Source: Tetraselmis striata (lineage: Eukaryota > Chlorophyta > Chlorodendrophyceae > Chlorodendrales > Chlorodendraceae). From it: a DNA stretch of 64,000 bases. Each line of letters opens with the position of its first letter. Position 1 is the stretch's first letter. The notes beneath the pieces are model-generated. The model did not search any database. It was not told the DNA's origin and worked only from the letters and a program-made list of their open reading frames with translations. The DNA lies in the NCBI GenBank assembly GCA_006384855.1, contig VCJN01002436.1, forward strand, positions 1-64,000, read 5' to 3'. This document shows positions 14,785-61,660 of the stretch, one piece after another. The translations under genes were made by a program, and so were the position numbers.

Positions 14785-15978
14785 GCTGCTTATTCGGCCG
14801 CTGCTGCGCGGGTGCTGGGCCTTTGCCCGCGCGAGGTTCCGCGCTTGTCACTTGCCCTGGCCCCACGTGTGGTATTGATCCCTCATGGCTTCGCTCTACG
14901 GATGGCTCGAACCGGAGCGCTAAGGATTTCATCGTGGATCATCTACCCATCTGCTCCGTAGCGAACTACAAGCACCGCATGCATACCGATTTGAAGAATC
15001 TGTGGGCATATGTGGCAATTGATGCGGGGGCGGTGCTTGACCGGGACCGCTCGGGAGCCGGCGACTTGATCCTTGAGACGAGTGGGCTGCGCCCAGCGGA
15101 CCGCTCGCGGCCGTCGGACTTGACGCTGGCGGGGTGGGGGGGGGGGGGGGGGGGACGGCGTGCAATTACATGATCGACTTCGCGTGCGTGTCCTCCACGA
15201 CCCGCCCCACTTGGAGCAACGACCCCAGCTGGTGCACCCCGGGGATTGCGGCGACCGAGACGGAGCAGGGTAAGTTGGCAGCGGACCGGGGGTCTTCCGC
15301 CCCAGTGCAAGGTGTTCACCGGTACTACCCTTTTGTGGTTGAGGACCGCGGCCGTCTCGGGAAGTCCGCTTTGACGGTGGTCTACATCTTCGCGGTGTTG
15401 CTGGCTGTGCGCGACTTCCCTGGCGATCCTTCCGCCCCGACCTCGTGCTTCTTTCGTGGTCATTTCGTTTAGGCACTTCGGAACTTTATCGCTAGCCAAC
15501 CTGCCGAGTTCCGCCGTCACTTGTCGCGCACACGGCGGGGGCTGTTGCAGCGGGTCTCTGCTTTGCGTGCATGGTACCCTGGGCGGCATTCTCTCTGCCG
15601 GTGTGCAGATGGCCAAGTCTGATGCATGGGCTCGTGCCCATTATGCATCTTCTCATGCTACTGCTTCCACCTTGCAGTAGTTGTAAAGGACCTTTCCAAT
15701 TGTTCTTTTCTGGTGATTTCCTTATATCGCCTTCTGCAGCTAGCTCATGTAAATAATGTTAATACGGACTGACGAGTACGTTACTACCACATATCTACGC
15801 AACATCACTAAGTACTACATGGCAGTTAACGATAACTATGCGGGACGATGCGGGTCGCTTTTAGGCGGCTTGTTGTGTTGCTACGGGCCGCTTTAGGCGG
15901 TTGCTTGCTGTGTTTATCTTACAATGTAGCTTTTCGCGGTGGATTCGTTTCTGGCCCTTTTATGTTATTCACACTTGT
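14785..15978 (+). mobile_element. LINE-A copy 1, 5'-truncated: endonuclease-like C-terminus and 3' end
   Basis: A ~1.2-kb copy homologous to 17.83-19.17 kb. The shared frame reads DFIVDHLPI, then AGAVLDRDRSG, SRPSDLTLAGW, MIDFACVS and VVEDRGRLGKSALTVVYIFA. The order RPxD, hydrophobic-D, a downstream E..K and a closing vEdrGRLG is what I associate with restriction-like endonuclease regions at the C-terminus of algal LINEs. Differences between copies 1 and 2 in the VDHLPI part are mostly synonymous in this frame, which supports past coding. A G run near 15.14 kb interrupts the frame and the protein end is shifted. The conserved C-terminal block reads HGTLGGILSAGVQMAKSDA near 15.57-15.63 kb. The 3' end is TGGATTCGTTTCTGGCCC then TTATTCACAC. 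Confidence 0.6.
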
Positions 15979-17639: not shown

Positions 17640-19172
17640 TGGTTGTCCATCGCCACCGCAGTCGTGCAATTCGCTTGCGTGACTTAGTATTCGTGGCCCT
17701 CGATCTTGGCTTCCGGTGTACGGGTGCCGCGGTCTCGCCACTCGATACCTGCTCATGTACAACGCGTGCGGGCCGGGCTCCCTATCGTCGCTTTCCAAGT
17801 CGGATCACGAGTCACCCCGCAAGATTCCATGTGCTGCTTATTCGGCCGCCGTTGCGCGGGTACATGGCCTTCGCCTGCGCGGGGTTCCGCGCTTATTGTC
17901 ACATACCATGGGCCCACGTATGGTATTGATCCCTTATGGCTTCGCGCTACGGATGGCTCAAGCATGAACGCTACGGACTTCGTCGTGGATCATCTGCCCA
18001 TTTTCCCCGTCGCGAACTACAACCACCGCATGCATAACGCTTGTTTGAAAAATGTGGGCTTCCGTGGTGATTGAAGCGGGGCGGTGCTTGACCGGGATCG
18101 CTCGGGGGTCGGTGACTTGAACTTTGAGACGAGTAGTGATCTTCGCCCGGCGGACTGCTCGCGGCCGTCGGACTTGACGCTGGCGGGGTGGAGGGGGGCG
18201 GTGAGATTACATGATCGATTTCGCGTGCTTCTCCTCCACGACCCCCACTTGGGGCAACGAGCGACCCCCGCTAGTCGTGCAACCCAAGGATCGCGGCGAC
18301 CGAGGCGGAGCATGGTAAGTTTGCCTCGGACCGGGCGTCTTCCGCCCCGGCGTTGCAGGGTGTTCACCGGTATTACCTTGTTTTTTATTGTTGAGGACCG
18401 CGGCCGCCTAGGAAAATCTGCTTTGCCGGTGGCCTAAATCTTTGCGGTGTTACTTGCTATGCGCAACTTGCATGGCGGTCCTTTATTCACCTCGACTTCA
18501 TGCTTCCTTCGCGTTAGTCCGTCCATGCTCTTCGGAACTTTGTAGCCACTCGCCCGCCAGCCTGCTGAGTTTCGCCATCACTCCATGTTGCGCACACGGC
18601 GGGGGTTGTTGCAACGGGTCTATGTTTGCGTGCATGGTACCTTGGGCGGCATTCTCTCTGCCGGGGTGCAGACGGCCAAGTATGATGTTTTGCTAATGCT
18701 CATTCCGCATCATCTTCCGTTGCTGCTTCGTTTCCACCTCGCAGTTTATGTATGGGGACGTTTCCTATGTTTTGCCTTTTTGGGTGATTTTCTGATCGCC
18801 TTTTGCAGCTACCTCATGAAGTATGTATATATTATACACACAGGAGAAATGGGTATATTTCTCTTCATCCCGTATTCCAACATGGGCTTTAGCAGAGGTT
18901 TATAGTATAATACGTCGAGAACTCCGATACCATTAATGTGATCGCCGTAGCGCGAGCACATTCGCCGGGTTCAGACATTTAGTGCAATGGCTAGGATACT
19001 GGTACCGGTGTTATGGTATGCCTGTATCCTGTTTCAAACTAAAATCGCTCCGAGAATTCATATTGCGCGGGTTGCGCGGGCCGCTTTTGTGGGCGGCTTG
19101 CTGTGTTGATCTCCGAATACTGCTTCTAGCGGTGGATTTCGTACTCTGGTATTTTGTAATTCGTACATTATA
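17640..19172 (+). mobile_element. LINE-A copy 2, 5'-truncated
   Basis: The longest LINE-A copy, matching copy 1 from about 17.83 kb. Visible blocks are TDGSSMNATDFVVDHLPI, VANYNHRMH, LDRDRSGVGDL, MIDFACFSSTT, FIVEDRGRLGKSALPV, RTRRGLLQRV and HGTLGGILSAGVQTAK, with several frame changes. After the coding end a GCAGCTACCTCATG word and a ~350-bp 3' region lead to GGTGGATTTCGTACTCTGG then TTTTGTAATTCGTAC. As a plain LINE fossil it cannot make a full protein. Confidence 0.6.
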
Positions 19173-33766: not shown

Positions 33767-35951
33767 TCACGATGGCGGCATGGGGATGTTGTTGAGCAAC
33801 GCAGACAAGACAAATGGCTTGTACTCCGCCTCCAGCGTCTGTAGGAGCGGAAACACCACTCGTCAGTAGGAGCACTATCCTCGCCGAGCGCACACGGAAG
33901 ACTGTGCGTATTGCACGGCTGGCATGGCATAGCGGAGGAAGACAACTCAGCGCTGTCTGAGCGCGCCGCCAGGGAACACCAGCGGGAAACTTACGCCGAT
34001 ATAGTCAAGATATTCAGTGAGCCTGAACGATCCCAGCTGGGACTGCAGGATCCACGGCACCAGATCTGCCTGGGCCGCATGTTGACGCGCCTCGGACTGC
34101 ACAACAGGGGCAGCAGAGGGCGGAAAGCATTCATGGCGAGGTGCGGGACATGGCAGTGGCCTGGAGACACGGCACTGGGAGCGCACACGGGCCGGCCTGT
34201 GACGCAATGCCCCAAGATCAGCAACTGCGTCACACCTCACAGTGCCGCAGGAGCGCCACAAGAAAGTAGATGATGTAGTCTGGACCCATCACCTGCAGCA
34301 CACCCAGAAATCAACGCCCGTCAGGGGTCAGTGCCTTCCCTGGCAGCGGGCCAGCACTGCAAGTGGCAATGCCGGCGGAATCACCGTGTGCATCACCGTG
34401 TGCATCACCGGCCGTGTGCATCCGCAGGTGCCCACGGGAACATTTTGTACACTACTCCACGCAAAATGGCACCGGGCATAATGGGTATCTGTCGGCGGGC
34501 TGCCACAGGCATCGCACGCCGGTCGGGTGGCATGCTGCATGCCGTGAGACGCACCAGTTTCAGGCAGGTGAAGTGCAGGATGTCCTCCCAGTGCAGGTAG
34601 TTCAGGAAGCCCTGCAGCGACAGGTCGCACATGTTAGCACAGCCTCACCGGGCAGGCGGATGCCCGTGTGTGCCCAAGGTTGAGGCGGACAATGTTTCAG
34701 TGGCAGTGCCGCACTTGTGGCGTGCCTGCCTGCCAGCGCCCACAATCAACATGGGTGCCGACGCACTTCGAAGATATTAGCAGCAAAAAAGCGCCTTGCC
34801 TTTTGCCACCCAAATCAAACGAATACATGGCGATTACATTACGAAAGTAAAAAATGGGGTGAATTGGGGTGGAAGGGCAGGGGGGGGGGGGGGGGGGGGG
34901 CACGTGAGACAGCCACCGCAGGAGGATGTGGGAGATGGAGACATGGGCCGCAGAAAAAGCGCCCGCAAGTCCCGGCATCTGCTCGCATGCCACCGTTTCC
35001 ACCTGCATCGTTCCATGGCGGCAGTCAGTCGCCCGCATTCCCTGTAGCTGATAAACGGGATAGGCAGAAGGAGGGATGGACCAGCGAGCTCGGATCGGCG
35101 AGGTGTGTGTGTCTGGTGGGGGGCGGGGGGCACAATCCATGCGGAAGGCGTGGATAGGAGCAGCGGAAGAGGCAGCACGCGCGGGTGCGCAAAGGGTTGA
35201 TACTAGCAGGCGGTGCGTCACGCAAGCTGCGGGCCTGAGCGCACAATGTGACAGATCATCATGGCGGGGCGGCTGCCAGCGACGGCTTCTCCCCATGCGG
35301 GCCATAGGTACACCGACGCAGGCGAGTGTGTAAGGTAGGCGAAAAACTCCTGCGCAGCGGCACCCAGCCGGCTCAGCACGTGTGCCTCAATGAGTCACGT
35401 GCGGGTAGCGGTTGGACTCACAGCGGGGCCCCTCCGCCGCTGCGGCACCACGATCGCCCAGCACGGCGGCCTGTTGCCGTCGCGGGCCGCACCTGCGTGA
35501 TGACGCCAGACCCCATGATGCTCCAGATGACGGCCACAAACCAGTCGGTGCTGAACCCCTTGGCGCCGCCCCTGCACACCCAGAAGCGCATTAGTCGCCG
35601 GCACGTGGCTGCGACTTCAACATAAATAATGCGACCACACCGTACCCGCCGCAACGGCTGCGGGTTCGCTGTATATAGCATCGTTTGACCCCCCCGTCTG
35701 CAAAGAGAGGAAAGCAATCATTCCTCTTATAATATATCATAACACGAATACCGCACGGACCTTCTGACTCTTTGATGCAAAACAGTCCATTATTCCGCAA
35801 TCCCCTGAACCCAATCAACTGTTACGTCCACTGTTGTCCCATCAATCCTGCGCGATAATACTCGATATTGGGGATGAGGGGGCCTTTTAGCCGCACTGGC
35901 TCTATGGTATGTATGCACTTGAGAGAAGAGACTAGCGAAATGACATGGGGC

Positions 35952-35991
<40 letters not shown>

Positions 35992-38900
35992 GGGGGTGGG
36001 TGGGGGGGGGGGGGGGGGCGGGGGGATAGTGCGGTGGTCACGAGTAGGCATTCCCCACAGCCCTGCCTATTGTTGTCAGTGCAAACCAGCGGGGCAGGCC
36101 CCACCCAGGCGCAGCCGCTTGAGCGTCGTGACACGCGGCGGCGCTGGAGGCCACCGCCTGGTGCGCCCAGCGGCTGAGCTCGAGGAGCGACTCCGCGCCC
36201 CAATCGTCCCGGCGCGACGTGCCCGTGAAGTAGCCGGACGCCACCCTGTGATGCAGCCACGGCAATGGGCGGCAGCGCAATCTCACCCACGCAGCGACCC
36301 CCTGTGTCCTGACTTTGGTTTCGGAGCACGGCACCATCACGCCACGGGATCACACTCCCGAAAGGAGCATACTCGAAAATGGAGTCAAATAGTAACATGT
36401 TGCGCAAATTGTAACAACACACAATTGATAGATTTGTCTTCATTTTGGTATTGGTTCAGGTAGACTCATCCATGAGTGTTATACATAACCACTCTTGCAA
36501 TTGTTATTTTTACTAGAAATTGTGCCTTTAAAGGACTCAATAACAAAAACAACAATTGTTTGGCTTCAGCGACAACTGTACACATGTTTTGTAATATAAC
36601 CATATACAACTTTGACAACATGGGGCTCCGGGAGCTGCGAGCTGTGCGAGGGTTGCTGTTTGGCAGGTGAAGAGGGATCGGCGGACGGAGCGTTGTGGAC
36701 ACCTGTGGAAGTAGGCGGCGGCGCGGCGGAGGCCCTGGCTTACGACCTCCTCCAGCGGGGGCAGCTTCAGCGGGGCGCTGCCGCCGCCGTCTTCGCCGCC
36801 GTGGCTGGCCAGCACCCGCGGGATGGGCGTCCACGGGATGGGCGCCTGACAGCTGATGGTCGCCAGGTGGTGCCCTGGCCAGCGGGGCGGGTGTGCGGGG
36901 GGGGGGGGGGGGGGGGGGGGGGGCTTGCTCAATGGCCAGCACTTGACGTGATGGTGCCATGCTCCGAAACCATATTCCGGACACAGGGGTCGCTGTGTGG
37001 GCGAGATTGCGCCGCCGCCCATTGCCGTGCACCACAGGGTGGCGTCCGGCTACTTCACGGGCACGCCGCGCAGTCGCTCTTGGGCGCGCCGTCGCTGGGG
37101 CGCGGGCGTCGCTCTATCTTTGGATTTCTGTGCAAAGGCTGGGAGACCAGGGCGCGTAGTAGCAGTGTCCTTTGGTTGCACAGCACCCCTCTGCCAGAAC
37201 TCTGAGTACCGCCCACGTGTATTCCACACAAACACAGCGCGCCCTCCCCGCCGGTCACCACATGGGGTAAAGCGTGAATGGTGAGCGCGTGCATGGTTGC
37301 GTGGCGGCTACCACATGCCCGGATTGCGATCTACAAGCAGGAAAAGGCAAGTGAATCAACCGAGGGTACCCCCCCCCCCCCCCCTTGACCCTGCTTTACT
37401 GGCACCGCAGACGTACGTGCGCGGCAACTATAAGAAGCTGCAAATTCGCCAACTTGATGCACTTTGGGTGCCGGCGTAGCCACAAGAGCCCGAATAACAA
37501 GCCTGAAATTCGGCTTGCATGCAACCTATAGGCGCATGCGCTATCGTTCCCCTTTAGTGCCTTCTACATTCGACCTCCGACTGGTAGGGCAGGTCCGTAC
37601 TCGAAGTGCTCGCATTAAAGCGCCGGCGCCCGCAGCCGGTTTGCCAGCAGCATCAGCGTCAAACATCGTGTCAACTATAGCACACGCCACCGGACACATC
37701 GGTCGGCAGGCTACCCGCTGCAGGCGCATCGACAGCAAGCCACGTGGCGCAGCGTCCGATTTTTTGACGTGTTCGACGCAGGCAGGACACAGTCGCAAAT
37801 GCCCCCCCGCATCGGCAAAGATGGATCACCGCAGTCTGCTGCCATGCGCCTCACTTTTGGGTCGGCGGCCGCGGCGCGGGGCCCGCACCTGCCGGATGCT
37901 TCCCAAACATGGCCACCATCACGGTGCGCTGCAGCAGCAGGCCGACCACCGAGATGTTGAGCGCCCCGGAGGACATGTCCTCCACGAGCTTCAACTGCGG
38001 GCATGGGCAACCGGCAAGGACAAGGACAAGGAAGGAATGGGGTTAGGCGTGTGGGGAGTTTGCGGTGTGGCCCTCCTTGCACCCCCCCCCCCCCCCCGCC
38101 CCTTGCGCCCCCGCGCGCTCGCCGCACCTGGACGCTCTCCCACCACAGGGTGGCCTCCTCCATGCCCGGGGCCTTGTTCACCACGGCGTCCAGCGTGCCC
38201 GCGGACACGGCCTCGGCTGCGGTGCCGGGCTTTGGCCGTGTCGGGGCGCCGCCACCCGCAGAAGGATCCCTGGCGGGCGGGGCACACCGTGCCTTTCAGT
38301 GCTCAGCCGGGGAGATGACAGGGCGCGGGGCTGAGGACCGTGCGCGGTGAGTGGGCGGAGGGATGCCAATGGATCGGAGTATGGACCGCTTTCTTAGCAC
38401 GGGCCTACAAACCCGGGCCGGTCTTAGTTAGGAGCCGCTACGCCCGAGTTCTCCAGACAAGCGGCACGTCATAGCTTCCGTGGATATGCCCCGACTCTAC
38501 ACTAAGTAACCAGCAGCATCCCCCTGTCTCCAACAGGGATCTTGGCTGGGACATCGCGGCCCTTGGTCCAGAGCCCCGGTACGGGTGACTGCGCGTCGGG
38601 GGGTGCACCTAGCGTTCCTTCCGGAATCAGGGCGCCGGCACTTTAATAAGAACCTCGTAATGAATCTGCGATTGCTTCTTCTACGTTTAAGTCATGCTGG
38701 GGGGGGAATGTTGTCGACGTTGCGTTGGCAGCTCGGTGCCGGTACAGGGCCAAGCAGCATTGCCAATTGCCGCCTCGGCGAATTGCTGTTCCTCCTAAGG
38801 AGGGGGGGGGGGGGGGGGGGGGGGGGCATACGTGGGCGCGCCCGCCTTTTGGTCATCGTACCACGTCGCGGCCTTGATGTGGCAGGGATAGGGCACCAGC

Positions 38901-41900
38901 GCGCGCTCCCCGTTGCCGCCCAGCGTGTGCTGCGCCTCCAGCAGCGCGTGCGCCGAGGCGCTGTTCATGTCCACGATGGTCTCCAGCACCCAGCCTGGAC
39001 GCACGCGATGCGGAGGCCATCAGCGCCGCCGCCTCAGCGGGGAGGCGCCACCCTCCAAGTGCGCGCCCCAGCAGCTGCACACACCGCCCACCTGCACAAG
39101 CTCTCTCGGAAAATATCGGCCGGGACCCATAATACTGGTGCCCTCGCTAGCCGAACATCAATCCCCCCCCCCTCCCCTTGGCAAGTGTCATCATTTCGGG
39201 CTCTGATTGCGGCCTCTTAATTGCCAATTCAACAACACCAACGGTCAACTCCAATAGGAAACACTGCTGCAGCATGAGTAGCATGAGTGACATGTGTCTG
39301 TCGCGGAGCGTGGGATGACTGTATCGGCAGGCATTGGAGTTGGCCGCTCTTCCCTCCTTGGCGCCCCTTTCCAAACAGAACAACCAGGCTCCTGGCAACT
39401 TGGGTTGCATGGTTTCGGAGCAGCTACAACCCAGCTTCCATTCCCTGATATTTGAGGCACGGGTGACCGTACATGGCCTGTCGCCCAGGTTGAATCCCTA
39501 ATAGGACGGAAAAATGACTGACTGACTGACATCGCCGCGTGGCTTCACACCGCGCATTCACTGTCCGTACTCCTAGACCAAGACATGAAAACAACCCTCT
39601 TCTAAAGCAAAGCCATTGCCGCCCGCTCCATTTTGGTCCGGACCTTGCGTATGCGGTGCCAGGCTTATGGCGGTGGTTTTGGTGGCTCGGAGGTGTGTAT
39701 GTGTCTTCGTGAGACACGTGCGACTTAGGTAACCGCATTCAGTTCCCGCAACTCCAACCTGGCCACGAGGGCCATGTAGATGCTGAACAGTGGGATTCAC
39801 TCCCGACCCCGGGTCGCTGTGGGGCTCCCCGGGCTAAAATCGGGCTAAAGTCGTATCCACCGCTAAAGGCCGCGCGAAGCGTCGTACGCCGTTAGTCTGA
39901 GGCACTGAGGGCACCTGAGCGAACGATGCTGCGCACGGCCCTTTGCGACGGATGCGATTCTAGCCCGGGAAGCCCCTCAGTGACTCCGGGGTCAATCCTA
40001 CTGTTCAGCATCTGTGGCCCTCCTGGCCAGGTTGGAAAGTGGGCTGAGAGTAGGTACCACAGCAGGAAGTGCCGAGGCGCTCGCGTGATCGAACCGCCAA
40101 GACAGATTCCACGCAACACGCCGACTTTGCGCACGTCAGCATCGAAAGCTGCGGGCACTGCGTTTCTGGACCGTGACGACGAGCCGAAGCGCCCGGGGCG
40201 GCTGTGATGAGGAAAAAGGGGGGGGGAGGGGGGTGAGGCGGCGCATGCGTACTTTCATTGTCCGCCAGCTGGGGGACATTGGTTGCCGGGGCCATCTCTG
40301 CGTCCATGCTGGCTCGCCGACTGCCTTTCTTCCTGTGCACAGCAACTCAATGTGTCATTCCGCCGGTAGGCCATTACACGAGCATCGATTCAGGCGCGTT
40401 ATCGGGCACCGGCTGGAGGAGGGGCCCGTGGGAGGGGGGGGGGGGGGGGGGGGCACTTTGTCTTGGGGCCCCGACCGCCGCCTTTGGCCTGCGCCACAGA
40501 ACAGCGCCCTGGATTAGTTACCCGTCTCTGTATTGTGATGCGGGGCTGTCCCTGAGCTGCCGATCCATCCCGTGTGGGATCCGCAACCGGTCCGCATGCC
40601 ATGCCCCCGCGTCGATGGACGAGAGAACGACTGCGGCGGCCGATAAGAGTTGTGTTGCGACATCGCGTCGAAGCAGCGGCTCGTACACAGAGCGGATGTC
40701 GACAGTGCGCCCAGCTCTTCCCGCTAACCACAAATGGCCGCCGCACCTAAAATTACCCTGATCGCAAGCCTCTGATTGGGCTTCCGCGCAACCAATCAGA
40801 AGGTTCGCGATAGCTCCTCCAAACCTTTTCCTACATTGGCCTCTGGCAGGCAGGGCAGATTCCTATTTGCGGTGCTCGAACCGCACCGGCACACGCACAG
40901 CAGCGGCAGATCAGCGATGTTTCGCGGCCCGGAGGGAGGTTGACGCGTTGGGGAGGTGGCGCCTCGCAAGGGCGTTGGGAGAGGGCAGCAGCGCCCTCCA
41001 AAGGGGCGCCGTGCCATGGAGCAGGGTGCCCCCTGGCTGGAGGAATGGTAGGGCCAGCGCATGGGAGGGGCGTGGGGAGGGCAAACCGGCAGGCGGGCCT
41101 CGCGGCTCCCACCTTTTTGTCTGGGGCAGCTGGCGGCTCAGGCTGCGGTTGGATTTCGTTGGGATGCGCGTTGATGTGGCGCATCAGGATCTGCCGGGGG
41201 GGGGGGGGGGGGGGGGGCAGCGTCAGGCAGCATTGCTGCAAACCCAGATGCTCCGAAACCATACAGCAGCAGCAACAGCCAATGAGCCATGCAATACACC
41301 GGGCCACAAATACTTCAGGTGGATCAGCACAAGAGGTGTGTGTTTTGGGGGGGGGGGGGGGGGGGGGGGCGGTTGTTCACTTCCGGCAGCTTCGTGGAGG
41401 CGCAGAGCATCGACAGCCCATCCACGTCCAGCCTGTACATGCAGCACAGCTGCAACCCCACCTGTGCGCCGCAGCAGCAGGACAGTCGCCGGCGCGTCAG
41501 GAGCCGCGACTGCGCTGGGCGCGCTGCCGGGGAGGCAGGTCGGGGAGACAACAGCGGCGGAGGCAATGCAGAGGCTGGCAAAAAGACGTCGCAGTTCCCG
41601 GTGGGTGTCCCCCTGCGGAGCATCATCGCAGAGTGCGATGCACCCCCCCCCCCCCCCCCACCCCCCTCCTCCTACTCCCTGCCGGCGCTTCAAATAAGTG
41701 CCCTGCCCCATCAGGCGCTGCAGCTGTGAGTAGTGGGGGAGGCCCAAGAATGCGTGGAGACCCTCACTGCACCTGAAGGGTGCCCCTCCCCCCCCCCCCC
41801 CCACCCCTGGGTGCCCTGTTCCCGCGGGCTCAGCGCTGCCCTTCCCTGATGCACCACAATGGGGTCCATGCCAGGGCTCAGCGGCTCCGGCTGCTGTGAT

Positions 41901-44256
41901 GTGGAGTGCGCAGAGCCCGGCGCACCTGCTGAGTGTCCTCCGGGTACGCGTTGCCGTACGTCTCCTTCCCGCCCGTCAGCCCCTCCACCAGCCCCTTCAG
42001 CACCTGGCACGGGCGGGCAGAGCGGCACGGTCATCGCTTAGACAGCCAGTGGCGGAACCTTCTCCCCGCTAGGGCCCCCTCTCGGCCACACGCATTGCCT
42101 TTCCCACAGGGAAGAGAAAGGCGTGATCCACGGCCCCGCCCCAGTCGCTGGGTAAAATGCACAGCCACAACCGACACTGTGACGCATCTATCTGTGGGGG
42201 CAGCAGGGTGTCCGAGGATACCCGGGCAATTGAACACGGTGCGCAGGGGGGGGGGGGCAAGTGCCGCTTGGCATGCGTATGGCAATAAGCGCCCTGCTGC
42301 TCGGTGGTGGGGTTTCTCACCCGCTGCGTGTCTGGCAGAAGTGGGATCTTGAAGGGCTCGTGCAGCAGGTGCGCAGCGCTGCGGTGCCACGCCAGGACGC
42401 CCTGAGTGGTGCAGCCAGGGGACGCATGGAAGCGAGTCGGACTCGGGAAGGAGAAAGGGAAGGGGGTTGCCCCGGGGGGGGGGGGGGGAGGGGGCGGGGT
42501 TCCCGCTCATCCCAGAATCAGCATGGGCACATACACACAAATGTGTAGAGCTCACGTAGACCAAACACATAGCGAAAAACATGCCACCTGCATATTCATC
42601 CAGGGTTCGCATGCTGCTTTCTGCCGCTCGTGGTCCCCGCCAAGTGACACACCCGGTATGTCATGGTCTCATCAGGGCCTGCGCCCGGCTGCTCTCGGGT
42701 TTGCCCATTGACTACCGATACAAGTCGCGCGCTGCTTGCCGGTTACGATGGTGCCATTCACCCTTCTCAGGGTGGCGCAATCGCGCATTTCCGAGATGCG
42801 GCAGAGCCCCCCACCGTTTTCTTGTCCCAAAAGACAAGTCGTTGACCGGACTGTCGGGAGCGCGGGGCTTGAACCAGGGCGGGTGGGACATGACACGGGC
42901 AAGAAAGGTCAGGGGAGGAAGGGGGGGGGGGGGGGGGGACCCGGACCTGCATGTCCCGGAGGCTGTTCAGGATGGGGTACGCCGACGCATCGCTCTGCGG
43001 CACATCGTGGCGCGGCAGGCGTTTAGTCAACTGGGGGCGCAGCTAGGAGGCACGTGCCGATGCTCGGAAGGTACCCAGCGCTCCGCATGCCAGCTGCCGC
43101 AGCACCATCTTCAGCCGCGGTGTTGTGGATGCCAAAGCCAGGGCAACAACATGATGACGGGGGGACGCACACCTGCAGCAGGACGCCGAGGTCGTGCTGG
43201 CTGAGCAGCTCCCGCGTGAGCTCCACCCACACCAGGCGCGGCAGTCCGCAGGTCACCAGCGCCTCCGCGCCCTCCTCAACAAGCGCCAGCCCGCTCGCCT
43301 GCGCCGGAGAGCGGGTCACAACCTCCTCAGCGCACAGCGCACATTACGCCTTCGCACGGCGGAGAATACTACACGCTTCTAATTCAAGGCATGTTTGCGC
43401 ATCAGCAGGTGTCACAAGCCAGCACCGCCAAACAAAGGGATTGAATCTTCACACCCTAGTACTGCGGAGAAAGGTGCAACGTATCATCATAATTGCTTGA
43501 TGATGACGAAGACTCGATCCCGTTATCATTAAAATGCATGTAAGGGCTACTGACCGGAAATTCATTTGTGGAACAGTGTACATCGCCCACAGCAGTAACA
43601 TGCACATTGATGTGACGATGACTAGCACAGAAAGAGGGAGACGTACAAACCCCTGCTGTCCTGCATCGACGCCATGGCCGGAGGACGTGATGTCTGAGTT
43701 CATTTACTCACATGCGCAATCAGTGACTTGGGAGAAGTGCATGCTCCGAAACCATGTGATCTTAATAGGAATTTCTGGCTCTGCCTCGCTAGGCCGGCTC
43801 AAAAATGAAGCTCCACTGCTCGCAGCAGACCAGAATCGGCCCGGCTTCTAAACCACACCTCTAGAGTCAAGACCATCGCGCTGGTGCACCCGGGTACTGG
43901 TAACATCGGACCGTCACATTGGCGCCCCGCTCATACCAGACACAGCGCCCCTAGCCAGGGGAGGTTGTATGGCCTCGTTGGCCGCATGCGCACGCTCACC
44001 TGCCGCAGCAGCTCAGCGCGCTCCTCTGGCCCGCTGGTGGCAGCGACGTAGCGCTTGGTGAGGTGCGTGGCGGCCGCCACTGCCGCGCCGTTCTCCACCA
44101 CAATCTGCACGCCCATGGGGCACGTGGCAATGCTGCACAGCGCGCCTGCGCACATGGCCACCACATTCTGCGGACACGTGGCGCATGGCGTCAGCGCATT
44201 CTGGCGTCTGCACGTGGATTATTGGTGGCGGGAAGAAGAGCATGCCAGGAGGGGGG

Positions 44257-44297
<41 letters not shown>

Positions 44298-47200
44298 CTC
44301 TGCCGCATCATGACACCCACATACACCTGACCCCAAACATGCCCGGAAGCTCAGGTTTTTTGTGCGATGTCCTGCACTCATTGTGTATTCAATATGACAT
44401 AATAAGAATACTTGATAAGGCTAAATGCATGCGATCCAGGACCGTCCAGTTATAAGGACCAATGTTCAGACTCGCGGGATCGCCCCGTCTGGACTTGCGC
44501 CACAAATAAAGACTCCTCCGTATGAGCCAGTTTTCCCGGGAAATTGCTGCATGAAGATATTTTATCATGGCAAGTACAAAGCATCAGAAGTGCTGTCGGC
44601 AACTCGCAATCGTTAGCAGCCCCTAGATATTCTACGCGTACCAATGCAGGCGGTACTCGTTGTGTTCAACCCGCGGTCAAGGGCACTGTGCTCTGAAACA
44701 GGTATCGGGGCCCAACATGTGCATTTTCATTGTCAAGGGCACTGCATTCTGCAATCGATGTCAGCTGGGTGCAATGCAGGTCACTTCCGGGGTGGGCCCG
44801 CCAGGATGGGTTGACGCTGTCGCGCTGCACATACCGAGTGTGCGATCTTTTCGCGGTCGGCGCTTGAATCCTTAGCGCCACCCTTTCCAGCGGGAGCTCG
44901 CCGCCCGGTGCGGCCCTCCACGCACCCCTTGCAGAGCGTGTCGATGAGGCCGCTCCCCTGTGGATAGTGGGGCCATGGGCAGCGGGCGCGATCGGCGCGG
45001 AGCAAAGCGGGCTGGGATGGGGTGGGATGACGCCGGGCAGCTTTTGCTGGACAGACAGGGCAGCAGCCAATGATGGCAATGGCAAAGGGAGTGGCGCGTT
45101 GAAGTACTTGCTGCAATATCACTTGATACGATATATGGGTATACGGGTGCCTACGCGCCTGTAAGAACCCACATTATAAGCCTCAAAATGGGATTGCTAG
45201 CAACCTGTGAGAACATTCGCTATCAGTCCGCAATAGTTTCGCCTACATGGGACCTATGGCAGGTAGGGCAGGTTCGTATTCGCTGTGTTCTTTTGACCGC
45301 GGCAGCACCCACATGCCACATGCACCCGCATGCCACAGCAATAACCATCGTCCAGTAAGCTCGTGTATCCACCTATAACAGGTACCAACACTGGGAGCGA
45401 TTCCAGCGCTCCCGGGCGCCACTCAGGCCGGGTGACGGACCTTGATCTCCCAGAAACAGGGCGCGTCCACCGCCATCTCGCCCACCACGCCCAGATATGC
45501 GGCCAGAAGTTCCTTCGGCAGCACCGCGCCGCGGCTGAGCGCCGCCTTGGCCAACGCGGCCGCCAGCACAAAGAGGAGGCAGCGCTCGCGGCCCGCTGCG
45601 GAGAATTTGCGGGCGACCTCGATCTCGTCCTCCTTCAGGGGCCTGGCACAGGGTCCAGTGTCGGCGACCCATGCATGTGTAGCTGTCGTACTTTGTGGGG
45701 CTAAGCAGCCGGTCTACAATAGTGCCGCTGTGCCGGCTCGCACACAAAAGATGCCGCCATACTTTAGTGATGTGTGTGTGTGTGTGTGTGTTCATCGTAC
45801 AGTACACCTACGATAAATACCATGAGGTGAATAACTTGTATCGATTCGCGCCTCTCGTGAATATGATACAGTCGGTACATATACCTGCTATTATATTCTA
45901 ATGTAATACTGATTTTACATGCTCTGTAAGTGTGTATCCCCAAGAATGGCAGAGGTGGTGGCTCCCAGTTGATGACCAGAATGCCAGGCGGTTTACGGGT
46001 GCAGACGCACCTATAAGAACCCGTATTGTAAGCCTCACATCGGGATTGCTTGCAACCTATAAGGAAACATAAGCTATAGTTACACTGTAGTTTCGTCTGC
46101 ATTTGACCTCTGGCAGGCAGGCCAGGTTCTTATTCGCAATGTTCTTACTACCGCGCGTCGGCACCCGCACCTCATCACGCTGTTGGCCTGGTCGATGGCG
46201 GACGCATGCACCACGCAGCGCACGCTCATGACGACGCGCCGCCCAGCCGGCAGGCGGGCCAGACGGCGCAGCACCGAGGCCACCATGCGGTGCGTGGCCA
46301 CGCTGTCGGGGTCAAAGCCGCCAAAGCAGGCGTAACCTCCGGGCCCGCGCTGGATGTTGGCCGGGATCTTGACTCCAGCCTCAATGAGGACCGCCTGGGC
46401 AAAGGGATGGGGACACCATCAAGAGAGAGGGGAGGGGGAGAGGGGGGGAGGGGGGGGGGGCTTCTGTCAGGGTGGGTAGCTGGTAATGAAAAGGCATCCC
46501 GTAAAAACTCGTTTTGTAAAACAGTATACAATCCCCTTATTATTGTGGAAGAGTTCAGCGTCATTATCGTGACGTTTCCAACAACTAACGGAGTATTCCT
46601 AGTCTTGTATGTCCGAACTCAGCAGCGCTGAGCTGCTTAGGTCATGGCAGCTAAGTTCTAAGCGTACGCGTGTGTTGGTTTTGGAGCGCTGCATACAGCA
46701 GCAGAGCCGAGTAGCCGCTCTAGATGTGGACTTAGAAAACAAAGCCTGACAGCAGCGCAACCTGGCCGATATATGTGGCATGACACGCTGCGAAACGGTG
46801 GCGGGTGATGGGGGCAGGTGGGTGGGGGCTGTGTGATTGCCTGCAGCGGCTCCAGCAGCCCCTCCACGTGATGCTTCATCAGTATGGTGCCGTTAGCCGC
46901 CTGCCGCCCTGCCAGGCCGAGCAGTTGGTTGTACGCCGCCTCCACCACGGCCGCCGGGATTGCGTGCGCCTTGGGCACCAGGATGCGCACCAGGCACTGG
47001 ATCGCGCCGAGCTTCATCTCCTTCTTGCGGCTCTTCATGTCAGCCAGTGCGCCCTGCGTGTGCGCGGCAGCCAGTCAGCGATCCATAATAATCTCCGATC
47101 ACCGGTCCAGACTTCCAGTGCCCCCCCCCCCCCCCCCCGCCCCCCCCCTCGCCCTCGTGAAGATGCGCGCTCTCTTAGCAGCAGCCCCAGCAAGGGGGGG

Positions 47201-49963
47201 GGGGGGGGGGGGGAGAAGCCCGGCTACCGAACCTTCATGGTTTTGCTGAGCTTGAGGGGGAAGATGGCCCGGCCACTAGAGGTGGAGATAACGGAGCCCA
47301 GAACGTTGGCCGCTGCCGTGGTGACAAGGCGGTACATCGGCGTGGTGTTGGCGTCCGGGCTGATGCTGGCCACGTCATCGCCCGCGGCGCCGTCCGAGCT
47401 CTGCTTGGCATGCTCCTTCGAGGCAGGGCACCCCGGGCGGTCAGCGGCATGGACTAGTTCCTGGATGAATGAGTGCTACTGGTAGGCCCGTTTGCGCATT
47501 TCCTCGTGACTTCCACTGTGGTGGCATTGTCATCAAATGGTTGATTCGCAGTTGGCGCTGCTCAAGGTGCTAAAGGAGAGAGGGGGACGGGCGGGCGGCC
47601 TCGCTGGACCGCCGCCACACCTGCAGCACATGCATGCAGAGGTAGAGCATGTGGTGGATGGAGCCGCACTCCACCATGGCGCCGGGGAGCAGCGCCGCCA
47701 TGCGCGCGGTGGCCATCCACTTCCGGAACCACACCATCTCCGGCTCCAGCGCCGCCAGGATGTGGAATGCGCACACCGTGTCGTTGCCCAGCCCCACCGG
47801 CGGCACGCCGCCCGTGATGGGGCTGACTTGGTAGCCCACCAGAAGGTGGCAGGTAGCCTGGATGATGTCCTACAGGGGGTAATGGAGCGGGTGGTTGCAG
47901 GGGTCAATACAGACAAGAGCAGGGTGTGTGCAGGATAAAGGCAGGAGAGGTTTGGGGGGGGGGGGGGGGGGGCAGCATCAGGGGGGGGGGAGCAGCAAGA
48001 GGGGGATGGGGACCTGCAGCAGGCGCGGGCTATAGAGGGCCCAGCAGCTGGGAAGCTCCCACAGTAGGTGCAGCATCAGCTGCAGCGGCCGCCTGTGCGC
48101 CTCGCTTATCTCCTCATTAACCGAGCCTGCGGCGTGCGCCCCAGCTCCTCCTCATTCCCGTTGCTTCTGGGACCACCAGCAGGCAGGGTGCTGCTCACTG
48201 GGGAGCAGGGTAGCAGGCCGGGTGGGGGCGCCTCACCCTCGAGGTCCAGCGCAGGATCCACCATGGACGCAAGGTACGCCGCCAGAAGAAAGACGTCCGC
48301 CATCTGCAGGGGCGAGTCCGACACCGCCTTGGCCAGCTCCTCCATCAGCGGCAGCAGCGCGGCGCCCACTGCCTCGTTGCCGGAGCGCAGCGCGGAGGAC
48401 AGCAGCTCCACCGCCGCCTCCCACTTGGCGGACTCGGCGAGCGAGCCGGCGTGCACGTGCCCCGCTTGCACTGCAGCAATGGCGGATTCTGGCCGGCGCA
48501 CAGGTGGGAGCACAGGCGCAGGAGCGGGCGGCGGGCTGTTGGTGGGGGTGGGGGCACCTAATGGACATGGCAGCACGCGCCACGCTGCCATCACGAGGGG
48601 GCATGCAGCGGTGAAGCCAGGCGCGCACCAACGACCCGAGGTTGGTCGGACGACAGCGCCTTCAGCGTGGCAAGCGTCTTTTTGGTGGAGCGATCCACCC
48701 GGTAGCTGCGCCCCGAGCGCACACGGCGATTGCACATCCTCAGCCGTGCCGCGGTGCGGAGCTGCGGGGCAGGGCAGGGAGGGGCGCCAGCCACCTACCC
48801 GCCGGCCGCGGCCTCCTCCTCCTCCTCTTCATCGCTGTCGCTGGACATGGGGTCCTCCATGTTCCAGACCTGCGGGCTGCTGCCGCTGTCAAGATCGATC
48901 CCGCGCCCCATGTCCTGCGCACATCACAGCAGCCGGAGTCGCTGAGCCCATGCATTGACCTCTTGTGCGGCATCAGAGAAGGGCAGCACTAAGCCCCTTG
49001 CACACGTGGCACGGGGGCGGGGGGGGGGGGGGGGGGCACCTCCTTCAGCTGCAGGGTCTCCACGCATGCTTGGGCCTCCCCCATCACTCGCAGCTGCAGC
49101 GCCTGATGGGGCAGGGCACTTAGCTGAAGGCGCCACGAAAGGGTGCGGGGGGGAGGGGGGGGGGGGGGGACAGAGACAACGCACTCTGCCATGATGCCTT
49201 GCAGGGGGGGACACCCACCTGGAACTGCGACGTCTTTGCCAGCTTCTGCGTCACCTCCGTCGCCGTTGTCTCCCCCACCTGCCCACCAGCTGCGGAGCAT
49301 GGGCGGCAATGTCATTGAGCGAACGCAGCATGCCTGGAAGGACATCAGACGCACCCCATCCAGGGACCAGATGGCGGTGTCAGAGGTGCAGCGCAACCGC
49401 TGCCTTTGGGCGCGCCGCTATCACCCAACTTCATCACCTTGTGCCATTAGGAAATGCCTGCTCCCCCGGCACCCTACCCCACCTGCATGAGAGGCCACAG
49501 GGGGGTGGGCCCGCACCTCCCCCCACCACCTCCGCCAGCTTCCGCGGCGCCTGCAGCCGCAGCGCATCCTCAAGCCGCCCCTCTAGTAGCTCCACGAGGG
49601 GCAGTAGCTAGCGGCGCGGCACACCACCGGATCAGCTTGGTGGACCTGCCCCTCCTCATACCCATGTCATTGCATAATGTACCCCCCCCCCCCCCCCCCC
49701 CCAAACACACACACACACACACCTACCCCCGCCCCCCCATTATGAACCCCAAGGACTGGCGCGCGGCGCCGTCGTCGACAGAGCGGCCGATCACTCACGT
49801 GGAACTCCTCGTGCGTAGTCTGTAGGTTCCGCAATGCAGCCTCGGCTGAAGCGGGGGTGCTGATATCCACCCCCCGCTCGCCCAGGTCGCGTGCCAGGCG
49901 CGCCAGCGTCGCCTCCATCGGCGGCTGCATCGGACCGCGCGTCTTGGGCCGCTCGCCCTCCAT
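33767..49963 (-). CDS. Large intron-rich gene, ~1,340-residue helical-repeat protein of unknown identity
   Basis: About 34 exons, listed 5' to 3': 49963-49799, 49607-49530, 49278-49219, 49123-49040, 48914-48799, 48705-48629, 48470-48237, 48126-48014, 47869-47621, 47415-47233, 47053-46841, 46394-46171, 45642-45441, 44957-44886, 44167-44000, 43298-43173, 43030-42947, 42401-42321, 42003-41926, 41461-41381, 41190-41113, 40488-40457, 40332-40253, 38994-38832, 38216-38128, 37994-37889, 36874-36703, 36245-36105, 35571-35493, 35385-35314, 35002-34904, 34611-34555, 34096-33995, 33838-33767. Nearly all have GT/AG borders and phases that join. The ends of exons 14 and 24/25 are uncertain, and exon 11 seems to use a GC donor. 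The start is MEGERPKTRGP and the end is NNIPMPPS then TGA. An acidic stretch (SSDSDEEEEEE) precedes YRVDRSTKKTLATL. Later exons are Leu/Ala-rich helices, some ARM-like (AMCAGALCSIATCPMG), with one basic linker (GGGRGPKTKKKGSRRAS). No catalytic motif, signal peptide or membrane segment is seen. It is probably a scaffold; the family is not recognised. Confidence 0.75.
35955..35988. repeat. (AG)n microsatellite
   Basis: About 17 AG units within an intron of the large gene, followed by a G run. Confidence 0.95.
36208..36350 (-). repeat. Inverted-duplication arm covering an exon of the large gene
   Basis: Contains the 5' half of the exon reading VASGYFTGTSRRDDWG on the minus strand, plus its upstream intron. 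It is the reverse complement of 36939-37075 with few differences; both carry GCCGGACGCCACCCTGTG and GGTTTCGGAGCA. This copy is in phase with neighbouring exons, so it is the functional one. Confidence 0.8.
36939..37075 (+). pseudogene. Inverted partial exon copy inside an intron
   Basis: A plus-strand copy of the exon at 36245-36105 and part of its upstream intron, lying in the intron between 37889 and 36874. It reads VASGYFTGTPRSRSW before diverging. Because it is antisense to the gene it should not be spliced in, but the transcript could fold back on the true exon ~700 nt away. Confidence 0.7.
37485..37640 (+). repeat. ~150-bp intron-dwelling repeat, copy 1
   Basis: Common landmarks are AAGCCT-AAAT-GG, TTGCATGCAACCTATA, CATTCGACCTC-GACTGG and GGGCAGGTCCGTACTCG. 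It matches the copies at 45.16 and 46.01 kb. All copies face the same way, antisense to the large gene. Confidence 0.7.
38084..38098. repeat. Poly-C tract in an intron (one of many)
   Basis: This plus-strand C run (G on the sense strand) is a rarer orientation. Most tracts in this gene are C on the sense (minus) strand. Confidence 0.8.
40785..40900 (+). repeat. ~150-bp intron-dwelling repeat, copy 2 (partial)
   Basis: TTTTCCTACATTGGCCTCTG, GGCAGGCAGGGCAG-TTCCTATTTGCGG-GC and CACCGGCACACGCAC align with copies 3 and 4. The 5' part is missing or diverged. Confidence 0.55.
41505..41905 (+). pseudogene. Inverted copy of exons 3-4 of the large gene, inside its own intron
   Basis: Plus-strand GTCGGGGAGACAACAGCGG matches the sense strand of exon 3 (49278-49219, VGETTATEV). 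Then come the same GTGGGTGTCCCCC donor region, a C run, a copy of exon 4 (LSALPHQALQL followed here by a TGA) and ~130 bp of the next intron (CTCAGCG-CTCCGGCTGCTGTGATGTG). The match to 48905-49290 extends about 380 bp in inverted orientation. The copy has a lost codon phase and a stop, so it is a dead duplicate. It lies between exons 19 and 20. Confidence 0.85.
44258..44294. repeat. (CA)n microsatellite
   Basis: About 18 CA units in an intron of the large gene (GT on its sense strand), starting near the presumed splice region 5' of 44.17 kb. Confidence 0.95.
45155..45310 (+). repeat. ~150-bp intron-dwelling repeat, copy 3
   Basis: CCTGTAAGAACCCACATTAT, AAGCCTCAAAATGGGATTGC, GCAGGTAGGGCAGGTTCGTA. 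Closest to copy 4. Confidence 0.75.
45771..45791. repeat. (TG)n microsatellite
   Basis: About ten TG units in an intron of the large gene. Confidence 0.95.
46005..46165 (+). repeat. ~150-bp intron-dwelling repeat, copy 4
   Basis: CCTATAAGAACCCGTATTGT, AAGCCTCACATCGGGATTGC, GGCAGGCAGGCCAGGTTCTT. It ends a few bases before the exon border at 46171 and so overlaps the 5' splice site region of exon 12. Confidence 0.75.
49704..49722. repeat. Poly-C run followed by (AC)n
   Basis: A ~20-base C run (49682-49702) is followed by an AC repeat, in the first intron of the large gene. Confidence 0.9.
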
Positions 49964-54632: not shown

Positions 54633-57600
54633 GAGATTGAAATTGAAATTGAAATCGATTACAACTTGCTAGTCTGCTGCTCTCCACCGCCCGTACCGAG
54701 TTGTTCATAAGGCTTGCCATCCCTAACCAAAGTAGGGAACCCATATAGTGTAATTACAGCTCAAGGTTTCGGCCATCCTCTTTCGTTTCCAAACCCCGCC
54801 TTTTTCCATCACGTGATCATTGGTTGTGTTATTTCCGGATAACTACAATGGTCGCCAGTACGGGCGACTACCGCTAATCGGCAGTACGGGTACGCATATA
54901 TTACTCGCCCCGCCCGAAAAGGTTTCTGTGTACATCAGTAATGCACCGGCACCGCGCAATCTTTGGTCGTCGTGCTGCATCTTGGCTCCACCTACCGCCA
55001 TCGCTGAAAATATCCCGCACGTCGCGGCGCTCTTCGCCCCACCGCGCTAGTTGTGGCGGCCCGCCGACCTCGGCCGCGGTCCGGCGATGCTGCCTCCATC
55101 TCGCCGCCCACCGGAGCTCTTGCGGTAGGATCCCCAAGGGGGAGTGGAGACTGGACTAGACTGGAGGGGGTAAGGCGCCTCCCCCCCTCTCCCCGCCATG
55201 TCCGCGTGTCGTCGCTCCGTGGTCGGCAGGCCGGTCTTGCTCGCCCTCGCGCCGCTTGCTTCCGCAGCGTGCCTCGTCGATGTAGCCGCCCGTCCAGGGT
55301 CATACCGAGCTGGCCGCTAGCAGATTCCTCCCGCTGCATGACTGCGACCCCCTCGGGGCACTCCGGCTCCTGTCTCCTGGCCCCTGAGTCGCTGCCATAC
55401 ATGCCCGGCCTCTTTGCCCCCTAACGCCCGCCCCGACTTTAAGTGCCCGCCGGGCTCCTGTCTCCTCGCGCTCACCGCCCTCGCCCGTTCTCACGGGGCT
55501 ATTTAGTGTTTCTCGGGTGTTTGGAACGGGTCGGCCGCATGGCGCCGCCGAACACTCCGCTGTACTAGTCCGGGATTCGAATGTTTCACAGGTGGAACAC
55601 ATACTGGTGGGGGGGGGGGGGGGGGGGGGGTTACGCCAAATCTTTTGCAGGTCAGTCGCGGGTCGTACCGAGGTACGCGAGAACACTATTTTATTTCGAA
55701 CAGCCCCCGCGAAAAGACTGCCCCCGTCTGAGTCGCACACACCCCCGCCCTCCCCACCCGCAGGTGGATCTCGGAGAGGCCGACACAAGGCCGAGGTCGT
55801 ACATGAATTATTTTTAGCAGCCCCGCGTACATAGCTCCTGCCCGGCGGCGCCAGCGGCGCTATATGGACTACGAGTGTTATTTTTCAAAAGCACCTGGCA
55901 TGACCCGAAACGCTTTATTTACATACACCGACGGCTCCCGCATCCACCGCGGCGGAGCGGTGGGAATCGGTGCCGGGTCTACACGCCGGGAAATAAACCC
56001 ATCGCAGTGGGAATGGACGCGGACAATATTCGCCGCACCATCACCAGATAGAGCCGAACTGGCCGCCATATCGGTGGCACTCGAGTCTGACCTACCGAAG
56101 CACATCCTCTTAGATAGCGCAGTCTCCCTTCACCTAATAGAGCGCATCATGTACCGGCCAGGCACCTTACGACGCCACGCTCACAAAATACTACTCGAAC
56201 ACATAGTACGCCAACTCCGACACCGAGCGGATTTGGGACTCCGAACCATCCTCCAGAAAGTCAAAGTCCATATTGGGGTCGAACAAGCCGACACCACCGC
56301 CGCCGGCGAAGTAGTCAACGGGACAATCCCACCTGACACTATCGTAACCGTAGGCGCAACTACCGAACCAACCGATGACGTGTGCGTGGCTGAACCCATG
56401 CATGCCAAGGCGCGCCGACCACCACTCACCCCCCCCAAAACTTGAAAACCGCCCTTCGGAAACACGCCAACGCTACAGTAGGCTGCGACGAAACCCTGCA
56501 CTCCCACCTCATAGACTAGGCGTTGGCCACAGGTGTAAAATGCCGAACCTCGTCACCCCCTCGGACATCACCACCTCGGAAAGAATCCACAAGTGGAATT
56601 CATGTGGGGAACACACTCAAGCCGAATGAGACGCAAAGGCCAGCCGTCCTTCACATGCGGGAAATGCGGACAGCATCTCAGCAACGGTCACATGGCAGGC
56701 AATTGTCCCTCCATGCATGGCCGGCCTAAAGACAGACCGACACAATAGCACGCTTGAACTCCTCCTCAATGACCTGGAAGTCCTAAACGGCGGTCGCTGG
56801 CACGTACTATTCACGGACGCGGGCAACAAACCTGTGGCTGACTTCTCCTCCCCCAACAGAGACTCCCGGATCTCCGACCTAACTGACAGAATCACACACA
56901 GATTTCTGTGCGCATCAGCATCCCCGACCGCCTAGCGGACGCCCAAGAACGGGAAACCGAAGGTCCCAGTGCCGCCCAAGCACCCACCCTGCTCCCCACG
57001 ACCATGCTACCCCCTCACCTCATCCGCCCTAAACACAGCAAGCCGGACGCAGTACGCATCGTCGGATTCGACCGGGACCCGACCACCGAAACCATATCTC
57101 CAGCACCGATCCCAGAGCAGTCCAAAACATACAGATAATCGAATTCAAAGTCTGTACTGATCTCAATCATGCCACCGTGCACGCTCTCATCCGCAAAAAT
57201 TACCAACACATGTTGAGCGCCCTACGTCAACAAGGCTGGCAATGTCCGATTGAAATCATTCCCGTCACCCTCAGCCGCAGCGGCACCATGCACAAACTCA
57301 CACTAGAAGCAATCCATAGCCTCACGGTCCTCCGCCCCAAGAAGCAACCCCCGGACAAACCCCCTCCGCCTCCCAGCGCCGCTACAATCCGCCTCTGTAG
57401 GAAACTCCAACGACACTCAATCGGATGGCTACATGCATACTCTCCTCCGCATATCCCGACAGTCCCTCAAACCTGCCATGTCCAACCCTAGTACCTCCCA
57501 CACACCCCGCACGCACACCCACCGTTAACATACACGCTTTCCGCAGACCATCGTACACGGCAGGGGGGGACAATACCAAGCGGCATGGAAGGAGGAGGGG

Positions 57601-60265: not shown

Positions 60266-61660
60266 GCGCCCGCCGCCAGGCAGCGGCCCACCAAAGCGGT
60301 AGATTTGGGTGCGGTAAGCACAGTGGCACCAACCCCACCTCCACGTGGTGGGCGCTGGCAATCCGTACGACCCGGGTCCGGCTGGTTGCAACAGGGGGCT
60401 GAGCGGGGTGGGCGGTTGCCGCTGATCCTTGGAATGGGCACGCGGCGACCGGGTAGCCCTACGGGGGGCTTTGCAAATAAAACTCGCAGCCCCGATAACG
60501 CCTTATGGCGCCGCGAGGTAGCAGCGCCCCGTACGGGGGGCTGCTAAAAATAATTCATGTACGACCTCGGCCTTGCGTCGGCCTCTCCGAGATCCGCCTA
60601 CGGGTGGGCATGGGGGTTTGTACGACTCGGACGGAGCCAACCTACTCGCGAGGGCTGTTCGAAATAATATCGTGTTCTTGCGTACCTCGGTACGACTTGT
60701 GACCGACCTGCAGAAGATCTGGCGTACCCCCCCCCCCCCCCCCCCCCCCCGTATGTTTCCATAACCTGTGAATCACTTGAATCCCGGCTTAGTGTAGCGG
60801 AGTGTTCGGCGGCGCTCTGCAGCCGACCCGTTCGAAACACCCGGAAAATTACCCTCAGCCGCCCTATGAGAACGAGCGAGGGTGGCAAGCGCGAGGAGAC
60901 GGGAGCCCGGCACCTCGGGGCGGGGCGGGGCGGGCGTTCGGGGGCGACGAGGCCGGGCATGGCATGGACTCAGTGGCCAGGAGACAGGAGCCGGAGTGCT
61001 CTGAGGGAGTCGCGTCCATGCAACGGGAAGAGTCAGCTGGCGGCCACCCGGTCTGACCCTAGACGGGTGGCTACATCGACGGGGCGCGCTCCGGCGGCAA
61101 ACGGCGCGCATGTAAGCATGGGTTCCCGTCTTCCCCCCTCCAGTCCCCCCTCGGGGATCCTACCGCAAGAGCGCATGTGGGCGAGATGGCGGCAGCATCG
61201 GCGGACCGCGGCCGAGCAGGCCGGCGGACCGCCAGAGCCGGCGCGGCGGGGCGATCATCGCCGCGACCTGCGGGTTATTTTCAGCGATGGCATCAGCGAT
61301 AGCTGAAGCCAAGACGCAGCAACACGGTGACCGTAAATTGCGCGGTACCGGTGCATTGCTGATGGGACGACGGGAATCCCTTTGGGGGTTGGGGTGATTA
61401 CTCCACTAGTACTGTCAAGTTGCGGTAGTCGCTCGTGTTGGACACTGCCCGTAGTTATCCGGAAAGTAACACGGTTACTGATCATGTCATGGAACGAGGC
61501 GGGGCTTGGAAACGAAAGAGGATGGCCGGGAGCTTGGGTTGTAATAACGCTATTTGTGTTCCTTGCTATGGTTAGAGATGGCATGCCCTAAGAACAACTC
61601 TGAGCGGCGGAGAGCGGCATGCTAGCACGTTGTAAACAATTTCAATTTCAATTTCCAAGG
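60266..61660 (+). mobile_element. ~1.4-kb repeat element (right copy), inserted in the minisatellite
   Basis: Uninterrupted and inverted relative to the copy at 54.6-57.95 kb. It starts in GCCGCCAGGCAGCGGCCCAC, includes three spaced motifs of the form GGGGGGCT-GC-AAATAA (60456, 60533 and a weaker one near 60650), a C run at 60727-60750, and GTAGGATCCCCGAGGGGGGA in reverse near 61150. It ends GCTAGCACGTTGTAAACAAT then an ATTTCA repeat. Minisatellite units lie directly on both sides. GGCATG before and GGCACG after may be its target duplication. Confidence 0.75.

Follow-up and report, generated by a model that had tools for sequence, protein, structure and literature searches.

Long poly-C tracts just downstream of predicted 5' splice sites in one green-algal gene

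Long pure runs of G or C have been described in Caenorhabditis, where they are maintained by DOG-1/FANCJ (PMC2211496). Within genes of C. elegans, G tracts lie on the non-coding strand in a ratio of 84 to 47, which means that sense C is favoured, and the position of the G/C tracts within introns is unbiased (PMC2211496). The tracts described here, carried by one gene of a green alga, resemble those of the nematode in being pure G/C runs of similar length, over-represented and mostly non-coding, and in favouring C on the sense strand by about 2:1 within genes. Unlike the nematode tracts, which show no bias of position within introns, they cluster just after the donors.

Among GC-rich green algae, the tandem repeats of Chlamydomonas reinhardtii and Volvox carteri are densest in introns, with a density that rises towards the intron-exon junctions (PMC3887541), and their mononucleotide repeats consist of C/G in 75–91% of cases (PMC4668000). 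The host gene is similar in composition and location. However, the main repeat motif in the two published algae is GT/AC, and mononucleotide repeats are a rare class there (0.94%; PMC3887541), whereas in the host gene long poly-C stands out and shows strand specificity at donors, and its introns carry just a few GT/AC arrays, at +77, +380 and +541. The low published proportion suggests that the present genome may have a special bias.

C runs at this position also have a functional precedent in animals. In a human minigene library, C runs of at least four nucleotides downstream of the 5' splice site are strong intronic enhancers (PMC8789036), αCP/PCBP proteins act via C-rich motifs adjoining splice sites (PMC4797308), and hnRNP K is reported to boost the splicing of an intron via a C-rich motif close to the 5' splice site (PMC2481429). 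The host gene likewise has C runs in the intron beside the splice site, after the 5' site or before the 3' site, but the known enhancers are short and animal, and a corresponding function of the present tracts is putative.

The window, i.e. the whole stretch of DNA that was analysed, is 64 kb long with 57% GC; spliced genes occur in it together with remnants of retrotransposons and numerous simple repeats. Its gene content and composition suggest nuclear DNA from a green alga. Starting at the ATG at 49963 on the minus strand, exons of the host gene were picked by open frame, phase and AG/GT borders. Donors were deduced from the reading frame alone, and all splice sites are therefore predictions. 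The resulting model has 31 introns, one of them with a GC donor. Most flanking exons join in frame; frame problems are left at exons 6 to 8 and at exons 23/24. GC3 of the exons in the coding frame is mostly 0.7–0.97, and a codon score, although trained on those same exons, re-finds most of them with nearly the same ends. The product is predicted to be a large protein. For the part encoded by exons 1–26, a Pfam search returned nothing above the cut-off and a PDB search returned no match. No relatives of the gene were found in viral and prokaryotic collections, and tRNA and Rfam searches found nothing. When other multi-exon genes were sought in the window by coding score, only an AP2 gene, a BED-finger gene and transposon remnants were obtained.

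Homopolymers of at least 8 nt in the 64 kb comprise 47 runs of C/G, the longest of 27 nt, versus two of A/T of 8 nt each (on the plus strand 16 C, 31 G, 1 A and 1 T). First-order simulations gave about 2 C and about 2 G runs of this length. Runs of at least 15 C/G number 31 in the window (10 C and 21 G on the plus strand) versus none in the simulations. The host gene contains 18 sense-C and 8 sense-G runs of at least 8 nt, and all 26 are intronic. In its introns they reach 2.12 per kb, about five times the density in the rest of the window (0.44 per kb), whereas its exons (3.9 kb) are free of them. The initial annotation had counted more than fifteen C tracts in 16 kb; it had left the eight sense-G runs and the inverted copy described below unmentioned. 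The principal tracts and related features are listed in Table 1.

Table 1. Positions of the host gene, its main tracts and related repeats in the window (a slash marks the predicted exon-intron border; offsets are relative to the predicted splice site).
Feature	Position	Strand	Remarks
Host gene	33767..49963	-	ATG at 49963 to TGA ending at ~33767; 32 modelled coding exons
C18 at +4, intron 4 (GAG/GTGC18)	49019..49036	-	Donor best of in-frame alternatives; tract also in inverted copy
C20 at +20, intron 11 (AAG/GTTCGG...)	47194..47213	-	
C18 at +9, intron 18 (CAG/GTCCGGGTC18)	42921..42938	-	Strong donor
C23 at +12, intron 21 (GAA/GTGAACAACCGC23)	41347..41369	-	Weak donor, uncertain
C20 at +4, intron 23 (AAA/GTGC20; donor AAA/GTGCCC)	40434..40453	-	Weak donor; phase mismatch with exon 24
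C25 at +6, intron 24 (CAC/GTATGC25)	38802..38826	-	Phase fits exon 25
C15 at +50, intron 3	49155..49169	-	Also in inverted copy
C10 at +24 and C19 at +42, intron 9	47954..47990	-	
C22 ending at -6, exon 22 acceptor (polypyrimidine position)	41196..41217	-	
C27 ending at -23, exon 27 acceptor (polypyrimidine position)	36897..36923	-	
Sense-G18 and G9, intron 11; predicted pairing with the same intron's C20	47121..47148	-	Fold z = -5.6
Inverted degenerate copy of the exon 3 to intron 4 region (48920-49283 minus)	41534..41903	+	Within intron 20, ~81% identical
G22 tract in repeat	55609..55630	+	Inverted copy (60727-60750) with C24 at the same place
G19 tract in repeat	15136..15154	+	Reduced to GGAGGGGGGCGG, a short interrupted G run, in the second copy (near 18182)

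What distinguishes the sense-C tracts of the host gene is their position. Six of the 31 introns have a run of at least 15 C that begins no more than 20 nt from the donor (at +4, +20, +9, +12, +4 and +6 in introns 4, 11, 18, 21, 23 and 24, respectively), versus 1.1 expected when every run is shuffled inside its own intron (p ~2e-4). The same shuffling yielded no excess of sense-G runs near donors (0 observed versus 0.5–0.6 expected) and no significant enrichment of tracts at acceptors over the host introns. With the weak-donor introns 21 and 23 left out, four tracts were observed versus 0.83 expected (p 0.004); without intron 11 as well, three versus 0.72 (p 0.024); and without intron 24 in addition, two versus 0.68 (p 0.14). 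These p-values are flattering, because the pattern was first noticed in the same gene. Thus, the central proposal of the initial annotation, poly-C just after the donors, survived both permutation and removal of the doubtful donors. The comparison of homopolymer distances with shuffled introns that it had suggested, made here for one gene, supported sense C near donors; its mention of C runs at acceptors is correct for two cases, but acceptors are not enriched overall. The donor-side clustering is the new part of these observations, so far in one gene, and no report of poly-C beside donors in green algae was found in the open-access literature.

A run of at least four C was found within 25 nt of the GT at 15 of 31 donors versus 38 of 514 other intronic GTs (p 9e-9), and G showed no such effect. 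A partly independent check of the clustering came from short runs. Among the 23 of the 31 introns that have no C run of at least 8 nt in the first 60 nt, runs of 4–7 C occur within 25 nt of the donor in seven, versus 32 of the 514 other intronic GTs (p 6e-4), and the same test for G runs on these 23 introns gave nothing. The C content of the host introns is 52% at +10 to +30 versus 28% in intron middles, and the introns without long tracts have 42% C across +9 to +40. From the short-run excess and the C content after donors, the underlying feature seems to be a C-rich zone after the donor, of which the long tracts are expanded extremes.

On balance, the tracts are probably G/C mononucleotide microsatellites that grew by slippage from short C runs in the C-rich zone after the donors, an explanation that we hold with moderate confidence. 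Seeds would be supplied by the zone at about +10 to +30, and slippage in replication would stretch some of the short C runs to 15–27 nt. The C runs would stay beside donors, as unstructured C-rich RNA may be harmless or mildly helpful to splicing, and G runs at the same place would be removed, as they would fold into G-quadruplexes or base-pair with C-rich RNA. Slippage alone would not put tracts at donors, and the seed argument is needed. This explanation is preferred because it needs the fewest additional mechanisms to account for what the tracts consist of, where they lie, how they are oriented and how their lengths vary. The tracts look like slippage-grown repeats next to a splice site, not a novel type of genetic element. 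They may also assist splicing mildly as C-rich intronic enhancers recognised by a KH-domain protein (PCBP or hnRNP K-like), but this role would be secondary to the slippage origin.

Could the tracts instead be selected splicing elements? They would then be intronic enhancers that make up for weak donors and are recognised by PCBP/hnRNP K-like KH proteins, which would help to recruit U1 or bridge to U2AF. The clustering on the donor side and the absence of G tracts there agree with such a role. Tract donors also tend to score lower (mean 0.64 versus 3.67 for the others, p 0.055–0.07). Part of that weakness, however, is built in, because a tract at +4 takes the place of donor bases, and two of the low-scoring donors may have been misplaced. 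In human cells, poly-C of at least four nucleotides at a fixed site downstream of the 5' splice site gives strong enhancers (PMC8789036), adjacent C-rich motifs mark PCBP-dependent exons (PMC4797308), and hnRNP K is reported to enhance splicing through a motif near the 5' splice site (PMC2481429); but few C suffice for the known enhancers, and runs of 15–27 nt are not required. Moreover, 23 of the 31 introns have no C run of at least 8 nt in their first 60 nt. A role for a C-binding splicing factor or a C-rich enhancer, which the initial annotation had raised, is thus possible, but we consider it unlikely that selection for such an element explains the tracts. A stronger version holds that, in this algal lineage, the 5' splice site is recognised jointly with a C-run element at the start of the intron, and that slippage in this element gives rise to tunable, length-variable donors across many genes; it is judged improbable.

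The orientation of the tracts was also compared with their position. Over all host introns, the ratio of 18 sense-C to 8 sense-G runs of at least 8 nt gives p=0.076, and becomes 20:6 (p 0.009) once both tracts of the intron 20 inverted copy are scored in their own sense. By start position, the ratio is 9:1 up to +50 from the donor and 9:7 beyond +50 (p=0.80), with p=0.10 for the difference between near and far. The sense-C imbalance comes from the tracts near donors. A transcription-strand effect of the kind proposed for C. elegans, in which the origin of tracts is indifferent to position but those that place G in the RNA are lost through stalled transcription or the formation of G-quadruplexes or R-loops, would produce a bias in this direction, the same as that of the 84 to 47 in the nematode (PMC2211496). 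Because the ratio in intron interiors is 9:7, strand bias is not favoured as the sole cause, although the contrast with the 9:1 near donors carries the p of 0.10 given above, and the nematode tracts are without positional bias (PMC2211496), unlike those of the host gene. We regard this effect as an improbable explanation of the whole pattern.

Structure formed by the nucleic acid itself was considered as a further function, with R-loops, template-strand G-quadruplexes or i-motifs regulating elongation and hence splicing. Runs of 15–27 G, as are present on the template strand, can form G-quadruplexes. In intron 11 (47054–47232, minus strand), the C20 near the donor is predicted to pair strongly with the downstream G18/G9 (MFE -115.8 kcal/mol, z -5.6); close-range C/G pairing of tracts was found in this intron only. 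Stable R-loops require G-rich RNA, whereas the RNA of the host gene is C-rich here, so the orientation is the wrong one, and the R-loop effects suggested in the initial annotation are disfavoured. R-loop forming sequences have a G-rich non-template strand, and the donor-side tracts carry C on that strand. Proximity to donors is likewise not predicted by a structural function. A G-quadruplex in template DNA at the tracts is possible and would leave the donor placement unexplained; as an account of the tracts, such a function is very improbable.

Copies of tract-bearing sequence in the window bear on both slippage and data quality. Poly-G is a known artefact of base calling and the splice sites are predicted, which could suggest that the tracts reflect poly-G read errors, assembly filler or wrong splice-site calls. 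The inverted copy within intron 20, however, contains C17 (41643–41659) and C15 (41788–41802), which are C in its own sense and G in the sense of the host gene. They are the counterparts of the host C15 and C18 and make up two of the eight sense-G runs. The C tracts have therefore survived about 19% divergence, and among the copies compared tracts lie at the same place at about 19–20%. Between homologous copies, tract lengths are 15/17, 18/15, 22/24, and G19 versus a short interrupted run; the last pair (15136–15154 and ~18182) appears, from comparison of the two copies, to be a visible gain or loss of a tract. Such differences look like the pattern of slippage with interruption and loss. The retention of tracts in diverged copies, together with their change in length, argues against a sequencing artefact; in addition, most flanking exons are in frame and the clustering stands without the doubtful donors. 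An artefact is thus hardly credible as the source of the tracts. Separately, because the inverted copy lies inside the gene itself, a long hairpin could arise within the pre-mRNA.

If the clustering of C runs at donors holds genome-wide, a lineage of green algae would have a highly mutable repeat adjoining one of its basic splicing signals, and the relation of repeat length to splicing efficiency would be directly testable by comparison of strains. If it fails genome-wide, the host gene is a single case in which repeats of a common class are unusually abundant.

The initial annotation had attributed the same habit to two other loci of the window. In the BED-finger-like gene (minus strand), a C24 at 1564–1587 comes straight after the GTAA of a possible donor, and a C15 at 2016–2030 lies shortly before a CAG acceptor; however, the reading frames flanking the C24 cannot be joined cleanly, and the gene may therefore be decayed. 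In the AP2 leader, the C run is located about 11 nt upstream of a CAG, so that it resembles an acceptor tract and not a donor one.

Self-comparison of the host gene revealed no similarity family among the tract-bearing introns, and an introner (mobile intron family) origin was rejected. The only matches within the gene were one dispersed element, two inverted pairs and one palindrome. The dispersed element, of about 130–170 bp, is found at 37466–37634, 45163–45290 and 45997–46169 in several introns with copies about 70% identical, and is possibly a MITE. Besides the inverted copy in intron 20, an inverted repeat is formed by 36186–36344 and 36944–37096 (85% identical), which lies in introns 26–28 and overlaps exon 28. 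It contains the motif GGTTTCGGAGCA, which is also found in other introns (39415, 41250 and 43745). The palindrome, at 39753–40036 in intron 23, is imperfect, an inverted repeat onto itself with 69% identity.
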